Assembly: GCA_011375175.1 (NCBI GenBank)
Contig: DRME01000127.1
Location: 1-37,039 of the forward strand
Length of the DNA stretch: 37,039 bases
Source of the DNA: Deltaproteobacteria bacterium
GTDB taxonomy: Bacteria; Desulfobacterota; GWC2-55-46; DRME01
Direction of reading: 5' to 3'
The position numbers were made by a program, and so were the translations under genes. A model generated the notes under the pieces. It saw only the letters and a list, made by a program, of their open reading frames with translations, had not been told where the DNA came from and did no database searches. Of this stretch, positions 3,510-11,524 are shown in pieces. The stretch's first letter is position 1; the number at the start of each line of letters is the position of its first letter.

Positions 3510-3525
3510 TGGCACCGTTCTTGCT
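3510..3525 (+). promoter_or_regulatory. Sigma-54 (-24/-12) promoter for the ANTAR regulator
   Basis: TGGCACCGTTCTTGCT matches the RpoN consensus TGGCACG-N4-TTGCW with one change. GG at 3511-3512 and GC at 3523-3524 are 12 bp apart, as required. Transcription would start near 3536, about 60 nt before the ATG at 3598. It closely resembles the element at 5079-5094. Confidence 0.85.
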
Positions 3526-3597: not shown

Positions 3598-4170
3598 ATG
3601 AAGAAGGTGGCTTTGATAGACGACGAGGCGTCGCAGAGGGTGGTGCTGCGCGGCTTCCTCGAGGACGCCGGCTACGAGGTCGTGGCCGAGGGCGGCGACG
3701 GCTCCCAGGCCGTGGACATCTGCACCGCCAACGACCCGGACCTCGTGATAATGGACGTCAAGATGCCGGGCATGGACGGCATCGAGGCGGCGAGACTCAT
3801 AAACTCGCTCCGTCCCACGCCGGTGCTGCTCCTTACGGCGAGCTCCGACGACGAGACCGTGCGAAGGGCCGTCGAGGCCGGAGTGATGGCCTACCTCACA
3901 AAACCCGTGAGGTTCGAGGAGCTCCAGCCGGCCATAGAGCTCGCTCTCGACCGCCACAACGAGCTCGAACAGCTCCGCAAGGAAAACGTGGACCTCAAGG
4001 AGGCCATAGAGACCCGCAAGGTCGTGGAGCGCGCCAAGGGGCTGCTCATGGAGAAGGAGGGACTCACGGAGAAGGAGGCCTTCGGGAGGCTGCGCAAGAT
4101 AAGCATGGACAGGCGAAGCACCATGCGCGAGATAGCGGAAGTGATAATCAAGGCGCTGGGCGAGCTCTGA
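3598..4170 (+). CDS. ANTAR-domain response regulator (RNA-binding antiterminator)
   Basis: This 190-aa protein has a receiver domain (1-115): acidic pair Asp8-Asp9, phosphoacceptor Asp53 in IMDVKMPGMDG, Thr80 and Lys102. A short coiled coil (about 121-140) leads to an ANTAR domain (about 138-187) with VERAKGLLM and the three-helix pattern of the family. ANTAR proteins such as AmiR, NasT and EutV bind paired hexaloop hairpins in mRNA leaders and block terminator formation. A matching RNA element lies at 7780-7871 before glnK. In Geobacter an ANTAR regulator (GnfR) with kinase GnfK controls nitrogen genes. No histidine kinase is seen in this window. ATG3598 has AAAGGAG about 6 nt upstream; the GTG at 3532 would precede the predicted transcription start. 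Confidence 0.92.
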   Translation: MKKVALIDDEASQRVVLRGFLEDAGYEVVAEGGDGSQAVDICTANDPDLVIMDVKMPGMDGIEAARLINSLRPTPVLLLTASSDDETVRRAVEAGVMAYLTKPVRFEELQPAIELALDRHNELEQLRKENVDLKEAIETRKVVERAKGLLMEKEGLTEKEAFGRLRKISMDRRSTMREIAEVIIKALGEL

Positions 4171-4234: not shown

Positions 4235-4954
4235 ATGAAGAAAGTTCTTATCATCCAGCAGGTGCCCCACGAGGGTCCCGGCACACTGGGCCGGATAATG
4301 GAGAGGGCCGGCATCGAAACGGAGCTTGTCAAGGTCTGCGCCGGCGCGAAGACGCCGGGGCGCGCAGACCGCTACAGCGCCGTCGTCGTGCTGGGCGGAC
4401 CGATGGGCGTATACGAGGAGAAGAGATACCCCTTTCTCACGGCCGAGATCCGCCTCATCGAGAGCGCCCTGCGAAGCGGCGTGCCCGTAATGGGCATATG
4501 CCTCGGCGCGCAGCTCCTGGCCAGGGCCGCAGGCGCCGCCGTCTTCCGCAGGCCCGAGCGCGAGATAGGATGGTACGACATAGACCTGACGGACGAGGGA
4601 AGGGCCGACCGCCTTCTCTTCGGCCTGCCCCGCCGCATGAAGGTCTTCCAGTGGCACGGCGACACCTTCGACATACCGCCGGGAGCCGTCAGGCTCGCCT
4701 CGTCGAGGCTCTTCGAAAACCAGCTCTTCCGCATAGGCCCCTCCTACGGCTTCCAGTTCCACCTGGAGGTGACGGAATCGATGATCCTCCAGTGGCTCGA
4801 GGTCAACGGCGACGAGCTCGCGGACCTGTCGGGCACAATCGACCCCGCGGCCGTAAGGGCCCGGACGCCTCTGCTGACGGAGACGCTCAGGCGCTACGCT
4901 GAGGCGGTCTTCTCCAGGTGGCTCCGGGGTCTCGGCAGCCGGTGGGCGCCCTGA
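4235..4954 (+). CDS. Class I glutamine amidotransferase-like protein
   Basis: This 239-aa protein has a complete class I (triad) glutaminase fold: nucleophile Cys89 in GICLGAQLLA and His176/Glu178 in FQFHLEVT. VVLGGPMGVYEE (51-62) forms the oxyanion-side loop. It resembles stand-alone GMP-synthase-like amidotransferases, which lack a synthetase domain and whose acceptor is usually unknown. AAGGAGGTG lies just upstream of ATG4235. It follows the ANTAR regulator by 64 nt in the same direction and may share its sigma-54 promoter, which would fit a glutamine or nitrogen role. That link is inference. Confidence 0.85.
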   Translation: MKKVLIIQQVPHEGPGTLGRIMERAGIETELVKVCAGAKTPGRADRYSAVVVLGGPMGVYEEKRYPFLTAEIRLIESALRSGVPVMGICLGAQLLARAAGAAVFRRPEREIGWYDIDLTDEGRADRLLFGLPRRMKVFQWHGDTFDIPPGAVRLASSRLFENQLFRIGPSYGFQFHLEVTESMILQWLEVNGDELADLSGTIDPAAVRARTPLLTETLRRYAEAVFSRWLRGLGSRWAP

Positions 4955-5078
4955 GCCGGGAACCCTATGACCGGACCTTAATCACCGCCTGCCCAAAATA
5001 GAGGCAGAACCGGGCGGCCCGCCGGCAAGGTACGGCGAAAAGACGGCCCCGGCCGGGGCCGGAGGCATGAGGCGTGGA

Positions 5079-5094
5079 TGGCACGCTTCTTGCT
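5079..5094 (+). promoter_or_regulatory. Sigma-54 (-24/-12) promoter for the porin/amtB operon
   Basis: TGGCACGCTTCTTGCT is a full match to TGGCACG-N4-TTGCW. GG at 5080-5081 and GC at 5092-5093 are 12 bp apart. The predicted start is near 5105, giving a leader of about 130 nt before ATG5236. CCTGCCCAAAA at 4988-4998, which also occurs upstream of the 3510 promoter, is a candidate activator site. Confidence 0.88.
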
Positions 5095-5235
5095 GTTACC
5101 TGAAGCAAGGCCCGTCGCAGCAATGGGGACGGTCCGGGAACACAGCAGGCGCGGGCGCCCTATCTTCCCGCTCGGAGAGGGGGGCGCATTCTCGTCTTCA
5201 TAACCAAACCTGCACGGAATAAGGAGGAAGCCTTG

Positions 5236-6261
5236 ATGAAAGCACTGAAGAGGACGTTGTTGACGGCGGCGGCGTTGTTTATGCCCATCTGCGCGGCGGA
5301 CGCCGGGGCCTCGGACCTGGAGATAACCGGCTTCGTCGACGCGAGCCTTGCGGACACGGAGTTCACCACCAGCGGCTTCGAGGTGGAGGAGGTGGAGCTC
5401 GACTTCTTCAAGAAACTCGGCGAGCGCACCTCGCTGAGGGCCGACATCAACTACAGGGCCGAAGACGCCAAGACGGACGACCTCTCCTTCGACGACATAG
5501 TGGAGCAGGGCTACGTGACCTACACGGCCCCCGTGGGCGACGGCCTGGAGTTCACCTTCGGCAAGTTCAACGCGCCCATAGGGTTCGAGCTCCTCGACCC
5601 GGTGGACATGTACCAGTACTCGCACGCCCTGGTCTTCAACTACGGCGTGCCCACAAACGTCACGGGGCTCATGGGCGCCTACGCCTTCGGCGAGGTGGTG
5701 GACATAGTCCTCTACGTCGTCAACGGCTGGGACAACAACATCGACGACAACGACTCGCGCACCGTCGGGGGACGGCTCGGCATAACGCCCGTAAAGGACG
5801 TGAACATCGGCTTCTCGGCCATCAGCGGCGCCGAGAAGACGGGCAACAGCGACGACAGGAGGACGGTCTACGACGTGGACTTCTCCGTTACGGCCGTGCC
5901 CAACCTTCTCATCGGCGGCGAGCTCAACATAGGCAGCGAGGAGAAGGCCAGCGCCGTCACCGCCGGCGACGACGCCGAGTGGCTGGCCGGCCTGCTCATG
6001 GTCCACTACGACTTCACGGACTTCGCGGGCCTTACGCTGCGCTACGACTACTTCGACGACAAGGACGGCGCAAGGCTCGGAAGCGGCGTGAAGGAGACGC
6101 GCCAGGCCTACACCATCGCCCCCACCTTCTCGGTCGGCGACCACACACACATCGTCGTCGAGTACCGCCGCGACAAGTCGGACGCCAAGGTCTTCGGCCC
6201 CGCCGGCGCCATGCAGGACAAGATGGACTCGGCGGCCGTGAGGCTCACATACGCCTTCTGA
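5236..6261 (+). CDS. Outer-membrane beta-barrel porin (BBP2/OmpL-like)
   Basis: This 341-aa protein has a signal peptide (MKALKRTLLTAAALFMPIC...ADAGA) followed by alternating, aromatic-rich beta strands and a C-terminal Phe (VRLTYAF), typical of BamA-inserted barrels. GKFNAPIGFELLDP and NYGVPTNVTGLMGAYAF resemble the BBP2 putative porin family. It should give small solutes access to the periplasm; its place before two ammonium channels and behind a sigma-54 promoter suggests a nitrogen compound (inference). ATG5236 is preferred over TTG5233 because AAGGAGG at 5221-5227 sits 8 nt away. Confidence 0.85.
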   Translation: MKALKRTLLTAAALFMPICAADAGASDLEITGFVDASLADTEFTTSGFEVEEVELDFFKKLGERTSLRADINYRAEDAKTDDLSFDDIVEQGYVTYTAPVGDGLEFTFGKFNAPIGFELLDPVDMYQYSHALVFNYGVPTNVTGLMGAYAFGEVVDIVLYVVNGWDNNIDDNDSRTVGGRLGITPVKDVNIGFSAISGAEKTGNSDDRRTVYDVDFSVTAVPNLLIGGELNIGSEEKASAVTAGDDAEWLAGLLMVHYDFTDFAGLTLRYDYFDDKDGARLGSGVKETRQAYTIAPTFSVGDHTHIVVEYRRDKSDAKVFGPAGAMQDKMDSAAVRLTYAF

Positions 6262-6269
6262 ATCATTCA

Positions 6270-6304
6270 CACCGCCGGTCCCTTCTCCAGAGGGGCCGGC
6301 GGTG
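6270..6304 (+). terminator. Hairpin after the porin gene (weak terminator or processing site)
   Basis: CACCGCCGG pairs with CCGGCGGTG, extended inward by about five more pairs including a T-G wobble. The following bases are AAGAAAACGACGG, and a T-run appears only at about 6330. It is therefore not a classic intrinsic terminator and may let transcription pass into amtB. Confidence 0.5.
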
Positions 6305-6407
6305 AAGAAAACGACGGCTCTCTTTTTCGCCTTGGAGGAGGGCGGCAACGACGCCGCGAAGCCCCTCCGGTCTTCAACGAAGAAACCTGCCAGGGAGGTA
6401 CGACGAC

Positions 6408-7745
6408 GTGCTCAGAGTATTTTCAAGGGCCATCCATGCCATCCATCAAAAGACTTTCAGCGCCGCCGCCCCGCGGCCCCTGCCGGCGGCGCTCGGTATT
6501 TCACTGATCCTTCTGACGGCCGCCGACGCGCGGGCCGCCGGAAGCGGCGCCATAGACAAGGCCGACACGGCCTGGGTGCTCGTCTCCACGGCGCTGGTGA
6601 TGTTCATGACGCCCGGGCTCGCCTACTTCTACGCGGGCATGGTGCGAAAGAAAAACGTCCTCGACACGCTGATGCACAGTTTTTTCATGCTCTGCCTCAT
6701 CAGCGTGCAGTGGATGGCGCTCGGCTACACGCTCTCTTTCGGCCCCGACCTTGGAGGCCTTGTGGGAGGACCGCGCCACCTCATGCTCTCGGGCGTCGGC
6801 ATGGAGCCGGAGGGCACGATCCCGCACCTCCTCTTCATGATGTTCCAGGGCACCTTCGCCGCCATAACGGTGGCCCTCATAACAGGGGCCGTGGTGGAGA
6901 GGATGAAGTTCTGCGCCGTAGTCGCCTTCGGGCTCCTCTGGGCGACGCTCGTCTACGACCCCCTCTGCCACTGGGTCTGGGGCGGAGGATGGCTCTCGGA
7001 GCTCGGCGTCCTCGACTTCGCCGGCGGGATGGTGGTCCACATAAGCTGCGGCGTGTCGGCCCTGGTGGCGGCCCTGGTCCTGGGACCGCGAAAGGGCTAC
7101 CCCAGGGAGGCCATGATGCCCCACAACCTGGGCCTCACGGCCGTGGGCATGGGCATACTCTGGTTCGGCTGGTTCGGCTTCAACGCCGGGAGCGCCCTGG
7201 CGGCCGACGGCGTCGCCGCCAACACACTTGTGACGACCCACATGGCCGCCTCGATGGGCACGCTCACATGGGTCTTCACCGAGTGGCTCCACAGGGGCAA
7301 GCCCACCATGCTCGGCGCCGTCTCCGGGGCCGTGGCCGGACTGGGCTCCATAACGCCGGCGTCGGGCTTCGTCACACCGGCCTTCGCGGTGCTCATAGGA
7401 CTCGTCGGAGGGCTTGTCTGTTACTGGGCGGTGAGCGTGCTCAAGCCGCGGCTCGGCTACGACGACTCGCTCGACGTCTTCGGCATCCACGGCGTGAGCG
7501 GCATCTGGGGGAGCCTCTCCATCGGGCTCTTCGCCTCGGTGGGCGCCGAGGGACTGGTCTTAGGCAACGGGGGACAGCTCCTCAGCCAGCTCACCGGCGT
7601 GCTCGTCACCATCGCGCTCTCGGCCGGCGGCACCTTCGCCGTCCTCAAGGTCGTCGACGCGACCGTGGGACTGAGGGTGAGCAGGGAAGAAGAGATCGAG
7701 GGGCTCGACCTCTCTCAGCACGGCGAGAGCGGCTACACCTTCTGA
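6408..7745 (+). CDS. amtB: Ammonium transporter AmtB (first copy)
   Basis: This 445-aa Amt/MEP/Rh channel moves ammonium across the inner membrane. After an N-terminal extension or signal (about 1-44), it has eleven predicted membrane helices. The key E. coli residues are all present with a constant offset of 43: Asp203 (D160), His211 (H168) in DFAGGMVVHIS, and His361 (H318) in DVFGIHG. AFYAGMV-type and FGWFGFNAGSA motifs are also present. The C-terminus (EGLDLSQHGESGYTF) is the cytoplasmic tail that contacts GlnK. GTG6408 is chosen because GGGAGG lies 9 nt upstream. It lies between the porin gene and the glnK switch, probably in the porin transcript. Confidence 0.95.
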   Translation: MLRVFSRAIHAIHQKTFSAAAPRPLPAALGISLILLTAADARAAGSGAIDKADTAWVLVSTALVMFMTPGLAYFYAGMVRKKNVLDTLMHSFFMLCLISVQWMALGYTLSFGPDLGGLVGGPRHLMLSGVGMEPEGTIPHLLFMMFQGTFAAITVALITGAVVERMKFCAVVAFGLLWATLVYDPLCHWVWGGGWLSELGVLDFAGGMVVHISCGVSALVAALVLGPRKGYPREAMMPHNLGLTAVGMGILWFGWFGFNAGSALAADGVAANTLVTTHMAASMGTLTWVFTEWLHRGKPTMLGAVSGAVAGLGSITPASGFVTPAFAVLIGLVGGLVCYWAVSVLKPRLGYDDSLDVFGIHGVSGIWGSLSIGLFASVGAEGLVLGNGGQLLSQLTGVLVTIALSAGGTFAVLKVVDATVGLRVSREEEIEGLDLSQHGESGYTF

Positions 7746-7754
7746 ATCTACACC

Positions 7755-7777
7755 GGGACCCCGGAAAGAAGGGTCCC
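7755..7777 (+). other. Small hairpin after amtB
   Basis: GGGACCC (7755-7761) pairs with GGGTCCC (7771-7777) around a 9-nt loop, ten bases after the amtB stop. No T-run follows. It may protect the upstream message end or insulate the switch that follows. Confidence 0.5.
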
Positions 7778-7779
7778 CC

Positions 7780-7831
7780 TACGATACAACGGCGTATCGT
7801 ATTACATGGAAAAGGCAAAGGCGCCTTTCCC
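7780..7831 (+). promoter_or_regulatory. ANTAR-target dual-hairpin antiterminator upstream of glnK
   Basis: Hairpin P1 has 8-bp arms at 7780-7787 and 7794-7801 around the six-base loop AACGGC. After a 6-nt linker, hairpin P2 has arms 7808-7816 and 7823-7831 (AAAGGC/GCCTTT plus GG/CC, one A-C mismatch) around the six-base loop AAAGGC. Both loops carry A1 and G4, the bases that ANTAR proteins require. The P2 loop and 3' arm overlap the 5' arm of the terminator at 7817-7871, so P2 and the terminator are mutually exclusive. This is the published layout of ANTAR-controlled leaders. The probable ligand protein is encoded at 3598-4170. Confidence 0.88.
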
Positions 7832-7871
7832 GCACCGCCTCCAGAAACGGTGGGGAAAGGCGCCTTTTTTT
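7817..7871 (+). terminator. Intrinsic terminator/attenuator before glnK
   Basis: AAAGGCGCCTTTCCC (7817-7831) pairs perfectly with 7853-7867. After a bulged G, CACCG (7833-7837) pairs with CGGTG (7848-7852) around a 10-nt loop. A run of seven T ends at 7871, the first three inside the stem. It would stop transcription from amtB into glnK unless P2 forms. Confidence 0.92.
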
Positions 7872-7943
7872 GCGGGCTCCTTGAAGGTTCCACGGCACAT
7901 CGGCCGCCGGGAGGGGCGGCGCTTAACGAAGAGAGGGAGGTAG

Positions 7944-8288
<345 letters not shown>

Positions 8289-8331: not shown

Positions 8332-9612
8332 ATGATGAAACAGACCGCAAAGACGCTGTTGTCCACCCTTTTCCTTACACTGCTGCCGGCGCTCGCCGCC
8401 GCCGAGGAGGCGCCGGCCATAGACACGGGCGATACGGCGTGGATAATCGTAGCCACGGCGATGGTAATGGTCATGACGCCCGGTCTCGCGCTCTTCTACG
8501 CCGGCATGGTGCGCAAGAAGAACGTGCTCGGCACGATCATGCACAGCTTCTTCATGCTCTGCCTCGTGAGCGTGCAGTGGGTGCTCTGGGGCTACACCCT
8601 CGCCTTCGGGCCCGACGTGGCGTCGGTGGTGGGCGGGCTCGCCCACCTGGGGCTCGCCGGCGTGGGAGGCGAGCCCAACGGCACGATCCCGCACCTGGTC
8701 TTCATGATGTTCCAGGGGACCTTCGCCATCATAACGGTGGCGCTCATCTCCGGCGCCTTCGCCGAGAGGATGCGCTTTTCGACCTTCGTGGTCTTCGGCC
8801 TTCTGTGGACCACCTTCGTCTACGACCCGGTCTGCCACTGGGTATGGGGCGGCGGATGGATAGGCGAGATGGGCGCGCTCGACTTCGCGGGCGGCACGGT
8901 CGTTCACATAAGCTCGGGCGTGTCGGCCCTGGTGGCGGCCGTCGTCATGGGCAAGCGCAAGGGCTACCCCAACGAGGCCATGCCTCCCCACAACCTGCCC
9001 ATGACGGTGCTCGGCACGGCGCTCCTGTGGTTCGGCTGGTTCGGCTTCAACGCCGGAAGCGCCCTGGCGGCCGACGCCATAGCGGCCACGGCGCTTGTGG
9101 CCACCAACACGGCCGCCGCGGCCGGGGCCCTGGGCTGGACGTTCGTCGAGTGGGCCCAGCGGGGAAAACCGACGGTGCTCGGCGCCGTCTCCGGCGCCGT
9201 GGCCGGGCTCGTGGGCATAACCCCGGCGGCCGGTTTCGTGGGTCCCGTATCGTCGATCATCATTGGCCTGGGCGCCGGCGTGCTCTGCTACATGGCCGTG
9301 AGCCTGGTAAAGCCGCTTCTCGGCTACGACGACTCGCTCGACGTCTTCGGCATCCACGGCGTGGGCGGCATCTGGGGCGCCATAGCCACCGGACTCTTCG
9401 CCTCCGTGGGCGCCGAGGGGCTCTTCTTCGGCAATCCGGCCCAGCTCATGCCCCAGATAGCTGGCGTCGTCGCCACCATCGTCTACGCCGGTGTCGTGAG
9501 CTTCATAATCCTCAAGGTGCTCGACGCCGTAATGGGCCTGAGGGTCGACGCGGAAGAGGAAACCATGGGGCTGGACATCACCCAGCACGGCGAGAGCGGT
9601 TACACGAGCTGA
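8332..9612 (+). CDS. amtB: Ammonium transporter AmtB (second copy)
   Basis: This 426-aa protein is a paralogue of the channel at 6408. It has a cleavable-looking signal (to about residue 25, LAAAEEAPA), eleven helices and the conserved Asp184, His192 (DFAGGTVVHISS) and His342 (DVFGIHGVGG), offset 24 from E. coli numbering. The tail LDITQHGESGYTS is the GlnK-contact region. GGGAGG at 8316-8321 supports ATG8332; a second ATG follows directly. It is 43 nt after glnK, the usual glnK-amtB pairing, and so would be switched together with glnK, unlike the first copy. Confidence 0.96.
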   Translation: MMKQTAKTLLSTLFLTLLPALAAAEEAPAIDTGDTAWIIVATAMVMVMTPGLALFYAGMVRKKNVLGTIMHSFFMLCLVSVQWVLWGYTLAFGPDVASVVGGLAHLGLAGVGGEPNGTIPHLVFMMFQGTFAIITVALISGAFAERMRFSTFVVFGLLWTTFVYDPVCHWVWGGGWIGEMGALDFAGGTVVHISSGVSALVAAVVMGKRKGYPNEAMPPHNLPMTVLGTALLWFGWFGFNAGSALAADAIAATALVATNTAAAAGALGWTFVEWAQRGKPTVLGAVSGAVAGLVGITPAAGFVGPVSSIIIGLGAGVLCYMAVSLVKPLLGYDDSLDVFGIHGVGGIWGAIATGLFASVGAEGLFFGNPAQLMPQIAGVVATIVYAGVVSFIILKVLDAVMGLRVDAEEETMGLDITQHGESGYTS

Positions 9613-9895: not shown

Positions 9896-9908
9896 ATTCC
9901 GGCCATGC

Positions 9909-9986
9909 CTGCGGTCCCCGGGAGGTTCGCCCCGCGCCGGACGGGATTTTTTACGCCCTTGCGGGGCGAACCTCCCGGGGGCCGCA
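9909..9986. repeat. Family B hairpin repeat, copy B2
   Basis: CTGCGGTCCCCGGGAGGTTC plus GCCCCGC pairs with the 3' arm ending in CCGCAG: 27 bp with one T-G wobble. Relative to B1, the pair G-C at the tenth base of the GGAGGTTCG core is C-G here, a compensated change. It ends 62 nt before the Rieske start at 10049. Confidence 0.88.
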
Positions 9987-10048
9987 GCCTTTCGAAGAGA
10001 CGATCAACACAAGGGGCCGGTACTTTCAAAACCTTTCGGAGCATGACT

Positions 10049-10495
10049 ATGAAGGTCATAAACGACAACACGACGCGGAGGAAGTTCCTGAGCACAGCCT
10101 TCATGGGCTTCGGCCTCGTCTTCGGTCTCGGCACCCTCATGGTGCGTTTCGTCCAGTTCCTCGTGCCCGAGGCGCGGAAGAAACGCTCCAGCGAGATACT
10201 CATAGGGCGGGTGAGCGACTTTGACGAAGGCGGCGTAAGCAACCTCGAGGTCTCCAACAGGATGATCGCCCTCGTCAGGACCGGCGGGGGCTTCACGGCC
10301 TTTTCGCGCCGGTGCACGGACCTCGGATGTCTCGTGAGCTGGGACCAGGGACGGAAACAATTCGTCTGCCCCTGCCACCAGGGCGTCTACGACGCCGACG
10401 GCGAGGTCGTATCGGGACCGCCGCCGCGGCCGCTCGACCGCTACGACGTGAAGGTGGACGGCGACTACATCTACATCAATATCATGGAGGCGTAA
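10049..10495 (+). CDS. Rieske iron-sulfur protein of a cytochrome bc/b6-type complex
   Basis: This 148-aa protein has a twin-arginine-like N-terminus (TTRRKFLSTAF) with one membrane helix (about 15-38), then a Rieske fold. Box I is C89-T-D91-L-G-C94 and box II C107-P-C109-H110-Q-G. Ligands would be Cys89, Cys107, His110 and residue 91; Cys94 and Cys109 would form the usual disulfide. Residue 91 is Asp (GAC) where the family has His, which is unusual for a Rieske ligand. The [2Fe-2S] centre would take one electron from quinol at the Qo site. ATG10049 has GGAG about 7 nt upstream; ATG10043 is too close to it. The gene abuts the cytochrome b gene. Confidence 0.88.
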   Translation: MKVINDNTTRRKFLSTAFMGFGLVFGLGTLMVRFVQFLVPEARKKRSSEILIGRVSDFDEGGVSNLEVSNRMIALVRTGGGFTAFSRRCTDLGCLVSWDQGRKQFVCPCHQGVYDADGEVVSGPPPRPLDRYDVKVDGDYIYINIMEA

Positions 10496-11524
10496 GTGGA
10501 AGAGGCGGCAGCACTGCGGGAGGAGAAGAAACCGGGCCTGAAGGACCGTATAATCGACCTCATCCAGGAGGACGTGCCCGACCACCTGAACGGCTTTGTC
10601 TACTGCATGGGGGCGACACCGCTTGTCATGTTCGTCGTGGCCGCGGCAACGGGCATACTCATGACCTTCTACTACATACCCTATCCAGGCAGGGCCTACG
10701 AGAGCGTAAAGCTCATAACCGAGGGCGTGTACCTGGGGTGGTTCGTGCGCGGACTCCACAAGGTGTCGATAAACCTGATGATCTTCACCCTGCTGCTCCA
10801 CATGATACGGGTCTTCGTCACGAGGGCCTACAGCGGAGGCGAGGCCAAGTGGCTCGCCGGGGCGGCGGTCTTCTTCACCACACTGGCCATGGGCTTTACG
10901 GGCTACAGCCTCGTCTACGACCAGGTCTCCTACTGGGGCATGACGGTGGTGCTCAACATGCTTGCCGAGATACCGCTTGTGGGACCGCCGACGGCGTACC
11001 TGCTGCGCGGAGGGGCCGAGGTCTCGGAGCTCACGCTCCTGCGCCTCTACGACCTCCACACAAAACTCCTGCCCCTGGTGCTCGTGCTGCTCGTGGCGGG
11101 CCATATACTGGTGGTGCGCTACCTCGGTTTCGCAAGGATCGAGGGCGAGGAGGAAAAGGTCCACCCCTTCTATCCCGATCACCTGCTCAAGACCGGCCTC
11201 GTGGCCGTGGCCCTTCTGCTCTTCATGGTCAACATAGTCATGATCTACCCGCCCGAGCTCGGCCCGCCGGCCGACCCGCTCGAGGTGGCAAACAACGTGG
11301 CGCCTCCATGGTACTTCTCGGCGCTCTACAGGTGGATAAGCCTCGCCCCGCGGGGGCCCGCGCTCTTTTCCATACTCGTCTTCTACACGGGACTCGTCGT
11401 ATATCCCTACATCGATGGCTTTCTCCGCAATCGGGGCTATAATATGTACAGAGTGAACGCAGCCGTGGCGACGGCGGCCATACTCTTCTTCACGGCGCTT
11501 ACACTTGCTCAGGCCTTCGCATAG
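10496..11524 (+). CDS. Cytochrome b (b6-type plus subunit IV-like, fused)
   Basis: This 342-aa membrane protein is the quinol-oxidising core. Haem ligands are His88/His102 (13 residues between) and His188/His203 (14 between); the 13/14 pattern is that of cytochrome b6. Cys37 in YCMGA aligns with the Cys that in b6-type proteins holds the extra haem ci. The C-terminal part (about 215-342) resembles subunit IV and carries PPWYF (270-274) in place of the Qo motif PEWY. The GTG start directly follows the Rieske stop, with ATGGAGG upstream, so the two are coupled. Menaquinol is a likely donor (inference). Confidence 0.92.
   Translation: MEEAAALREEKKPGLKDRIIDLIQEDVPDHLNGFVYCMGATPLVMFVVAAATGILMTFYYIPYPGRAYESVKLITEGVYLGWFVRGLHKVSINLMIFTLLLHMIRVFVTRAYSGGEAKWLAGAAVFFTTLAMGFTGYSLVYDQVSYWGMTVVLNMLAEIPLVGPPTAYLLRGGAEVSELTLLRLYDLHTKLLPLVLVLLVAGHILVVRYLGFARIEGEEEKVHPFYPDHLLKTGLVAVALLLFMVNIVMIYPPELGPPADPLEVANNVAPPWYFSALYRWISLAPRGPALFSILVFYTGLVVYPYIDGFLRNRGYNMYRVNAAVATAAILFFTALTLAQAFA

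Follow-up and report, generated by a model that had tools for sequence, protein, structure and literature searches.

A probable ANTAR-dependent transcription attenuator within a nitrogen operon, and the regulator encoded beside it

Why should a strong terminator stand between an ammonium transporter gene and the P-II gene that follows it? The question is raised by the 37,039-nucleotide stretch of DNA analysed here (the window), in which the gap between amtB1 and glnK holds two hairpins, the second of them overlapping an intrinsic terminator. A preliminary description saw in them an ANTAR-type RNA switch gating glnK-amtB2. We find it very probable that the element acts as a transcription attenuator that depends on an ANTAR protein and lies within a nitrogen operon. 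The switch type is already known; that it is intact here and conserved across relatives is well supported. The features are collected in Table 1.

Table 1. Features of the gene cluster and of the RNA element
Feature	Position in window	Strand	Evidence
Sigma-54 -24/-12 promoter-like site TGGCACCGTTCTTGCT, before regulator gene	3510..3525	+	perfect consensus match, relatives
Response regulator with REC and ANTAR domains; the element's proposed reader	3598..4170	+	Pfam PF00072, PF03861; EutV/Rv1626 similarity
Class-I glutamine amidotransferase-like gene (GATase), conserved partner of regulator gene	4235..4954	+	Pfam PF00117, gene order in relatives
Sigma-54 promoter-like site TGGCACGCTTCTTGCT, before porin-amtB1	5079..5094	+	perfect consensus match, conserved position
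Outer-membrane porin-like gene (BBP2)	5233..6261	+	Pfam PF07642
amtB1, ammonium transporter	6408..7745	+	Pfam PF00909, TIGR00836
P1 hairpin, hexaloop AACGGC (7788-7793), closing pairs AC/GT	7780..7801	+	hairpin scan, fold, covariance model
P2 hairpin, hexaloop AAAGGC (7817-7822)	7808..7831	+	hairpin scan, fold, covariance model
Intrinsic terminator, 20-bp stem with a single bulge; T-run at 7865-7871	7817..7871	+	computed folds, terminator-overlap count
glnK/P-II	7950..8288	+	Pfam PF00543, NCBIfam P-II models
amtB2, ammonium transporter	8332..9612	+	Pfam PF00909, TIGR00836

Two hexaloop hairpins and a competing terminator

The P1 stem is 8 bp long (7780-7787 paired with 7794-7801). The core stem of P2 has 6 bp (7811-7816/7823-7828) and is extended by GG/CC (7808-7809/7830-7831) across an A7810.C7829 mismatch. 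Both hexaloops have A at position 1 and G at position 4, the dual-hexaloop signature of ANTAR targets. The linker, TTACAT, measures 6 nt with the P2 extension counted and 9 nt up to the P2 core, inside the range compatible with binding: the eut linkers of Enterococcus faecalis are 5-12 nt long, and linkers of 3 or 14 nt impaired binding (PMC3369931). Stems, loops and spacing are as the preliminary description had given them.

P2 and the terminator are mutually exclusive. The P2 loop and 3' arm serve as the 5' arm of the terminator, whose stem comprises 15 bp (7817-7831/7853-7867), a bulged 7832 and 5 bp more (7833-7837/7848-7852); seven T make up the T-run. Pairing and T-run both confirm the 20-bp terminator described earlier, and its overlap with P2 places the element in the attenuator subclass of ANTAR targets. 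The computed fold changes with the length of the RNA. When the 3' end lies at 7832 or 7845 the RNA folds into P1 and P2 (-19.6 kcal/mol), and when it reaches 7871 the fold is P1 plus the terminator (-46.1 kcal/mol). The fold z-score of region 7770-7885 is -4.7.

Chance is excluded as the origin of the hairpin pair. In simulations that kept the dinucleotide content of the window, pairs with both stems of at least 6 bp arose 0.013 times per 37-kb window, and 300 simulations gave none with an overlapping terminator. Simulated 204-nt gaps held such a pair about once in 100,000. A separate inverted repeat, GGGACC ... GGTCCC, lies at 7752-7775, between the amtB1 stop and P1.

Conservation of the element in relatives

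We built a covariance model from 15 of the relatives' elements found by the hairpin scan, leaving the window element out; relatives are genomes of the same order that carry relatives of amtB1. This independent model matches the window at 7781-7827 (48.6 bits, E = 4.9e-10), and nowhere else in the genome does it find a credible site. The runner-up (contig C38, E 0.145) was rejected as antisense inside a coding gene. Rfam gave no match in the window at the gathering threshold, and with a lax threshold only chance microRNA and sRNA matches, all below gathering and none of them ANTAR.

Genomes of the order share a cluster order of ANTAR response regulator, glutamine amidotransferase, sometimes porin, amtB, glnK and amtB. 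At E <= 0.01, 16 related loci carry the element between amtB and glnK, the comparison that the preliminary description had proposed, and both hexaloops are kept at the same place; the lack of conservation that would have spoken against a switch was not seen. By the same threshold, 15 of the related loci have an element in the gap after the amidotransferase gene, and a few elements stand ahead of a Rieske gene or of another amt gene. Across the class, 33 of 63 genomes contain a match at E <= 1e-4. A hairpin that overlaps P2 and is followed by at least four T was found in 34 of the 35 strong elements checked, that of the window included. The seed alignment shows no variation in the AC/GT closing pairs of P1 or in GGC/GCC of P2. 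Pair counts show covariation; because the input elements were picked by the hairpin scan, and hence biased towards structure, positional conservation is the stronger argument. None of 76 more distant amtB loci has an element by the lineage model, an absence that is weak evidence because this model may miss diverged elements.

The relatives also qualify one earlier claim. The first amtB had been placed outside the control of the switch, and this holds in the present genome, where the relatives-only model finds no element upstream of amtB1 (4954-6408). It does not extend to most relatives, which have a second element there too.

Which ANTAR protein would read the RNA

The regulator encoded at 3598-4170 joins a receiver to an ANTAR domain (Pfam, 1.4e-22), and aligns over its full length with EutV (6wsh, 2.5e-38) and Rv1626 (1s8n, 5.6e-52); it is a REC-ANTAR response regulator of that type. 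Its receiver is phosphorylatable by sequence (Asp in IMDVKMPG). Of the RNA-contact residues of EutV (PMC8934654), R142, K143, K149, E160, R168, M172 and R175 are identical in the window regulator, and the changes are K147 to Arg, Y164 to Phe, N173 to Asp and R177 to Thr. The key positions are kept, among them E160, M172 and R175. Gene and element travel together in the relatives, in line with the earlier proposal of a regulator in the same window. In nearly all relatives examined the glutamine amidotransferase-like gene comes after the ANTAR regulator gene.

The genome encodes two REC-ANTAR proteins, so that the element could be a true ANTAR target read by the second one, on contig C72 (L143 6665-7378), or by both. 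This we regard as unlikely. Throughout the relatives the C72 group has a contact loop SQ(K/R)EN(K/R)K, in which Q and N replace M172 and R175 of EutV, and the M172A exchange abolished binding by EutV (PMC8934654). It is the group of the window regulator that is syntenic with the elements. Moreover, one relative (G007) has a single ANTAR protein, encoded in its amt cluster, and that cluster bears two elements. G007 and the contact-loop comparison favour the 3598-4170 regulator as the reader, short of proof, and the C72 protein was set aside as an improbable reader on its differing contact residues. The C72-type protein is itself conserved in the order, its divergent contact loop invariant, and may have an RNA target other than the standard hexaloop.

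The genome has no match to the HisKA_2 kinase family of EutW and PdtaS (PF07568), and no such kinase was seen beside the regulator gene. We therefore do not class the system as a EutVW pair, and go no further than to call it an ANTAR attenuator that has a REC-ANTAR regulator.

Promoters, proposed mechanism and known systems

Only two exact matches to the sigma-54 consensus TGGCACN5TTGCW occur in the 37-kb window, both at expected promoter places. In most relatives both places again hold a site that departs from the consensus by no more than one mismatch, and the upstream ANTAR element, if present, usually begins about 20-60 nt past the second site. RpoN is encoded in the genome. Earlier work had already noted sigma-54 promoters ahead of ANTAR genes (PMC12316311). 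The amtB1-glnK gap contains no + strand sigma-70-like site and no sigma-54 site, and no strong promoter-like site was found between amtB1 and the element. An internal promoter may lie there; given the two perfect sigma-54 sites, the switch most likely works within a nitrogen-controlled operon. Because the gap is without a recognisable promoter, glnK would be read from the promoter at 5079. As no element follows the 5079 site in this genome, sigma-54 is probably the only control on amtB1, whereas glnK-amtB2 is probably subject to both.

The computed alternative folds, conservation, ANTAR domain, synteny and promoter sequences support an attenuator, and from them we infer binding, phosphorylation, read-through, direction of control and promoter use as follows. 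Sigma-54 polymerase, presumably in nitrogen limitation, would transcribe the regulator gene and porin-amtB1. Beyond amtB1, P1 and P2 would fold first in the nascent RNA. The activated regulator would then hold both hexaloops and block the terminator, so that glnK-amtB2 is transcribed; with the hexaloops unheld, the more stable terminator would form and transcription would end near 7871. The choice between a stop signal and a docking site for the regulator would let the cell gate its nitrogen sensor and second transporter.

The element might instead serve mainly to fix how much glnK-amtB2 is made relative to amtB1, through constant partial read-through that depends little on a signal. Its place inside the presumed operon and the lack of an element before amtB1 would suit this explanation, which is nevertheless very unlikely, given that the loop identities required for ANTAR binding are retained and the receiver is phosphorylatable. 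Hardly credible is an ordinary terminator that closes porin-amtB1, with glnK-amtB2 driven by its own promoter and the hexaloops incidental: the terminator is strong by itself (-36.8 kcal/mol, computed), but relatives keep P1, both hexaloops and the same terminator overlap, chance yields such a pair too rarely, and the gap lacks sigma-70-like and sigma-54 sites on the strand concerned.

Regulated antitermination, then, appears the best reading, and other systems of nitrogen control resemble it. The GnfK/GnfR system of Geobacter sulfurreducens, said to have been described by Ueki and Lovley in 2010, reportedly has an RNA-binding ANTAR response regulator and layers nitrogen control on sigma-54. 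Its targets are reportedly nitrogen-fixation genes, unlike those in the window, and the GnfR gene is not known to belong to an amtB-glnK cluster, in which it differs from that of the window regulator. NasR/nasF of Klebsiella has a sigma-54/NtrC promoter as well. It too is an ANTAR antitermination system of a nitrogen operon, although NasR, unlike the window regulator, is no response regulator but senses nitrate via a NIT domain (PMC7496416).

The closest match in RNA anatomy is to the EutV/EutW attenuators of the E. faecalis eut genes (PMC3369931, PMC8934654), for which regulated antitermination was described (PMC3369931). They share with the window two A1/G4 hexaloop hairpins, a P2 that overlaps an intrinsic terminator, a linker within 5-12 nt and a REC-ANTAR regulator homologous along its length. 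The window element differs in that it is predicted to gate, from within an operon, the genes for a P-II protein and an ammonium transporter, in a genome without a EutW-type (HisKA_2) kinase. A scan of 1902 genomes had already predicted ANTAR-target RNAs ahead of genes for P-II proteins and ammonium transporters (Ramesh et al. 2012, PMC3369931). These are the same kind of RNA before the same classes of gene, although the window's lineage is not known to be among those named there. Unlike them, the present system has its regulator in the same cluster and sigma-54 promoters, and its relatives often have two attenuators per cluster.

What is particular here is the cis-encoded regulator, the position within the operon and the reduction of the relatives' two-element layout to one. 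The odds seem even that across this bacterial class a single sigma-54 operon is commonly interrupted by two serial ANTAR attenuators, read by the regulator encoded next to it and setting transporter and P-II sensor output stepwise, of which only the second would be kept here, uncoupling amtB1 from glnK-amtB2. Through conserved synteny one particular regulator is linked to one particular RNA, in a lineage represented here mainly by metagenome-assembled genomes, and RNA antitermination would be layered on sigma-54 control of core ammonium-sensing genes.

The window also has Rieske and cytochrome b genes (9905-11524), with no detectable element there. At two related loci (L005 6926-6968 and L113 3074-3124, minus strand) a Rieske iron-sulfur gene is immediately preceded by an ANTAR element with a terminator, and at L005 a cytochrome b gene comes next. 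This suggests that respiratory genes are under the same ANTAR control in some relatives.
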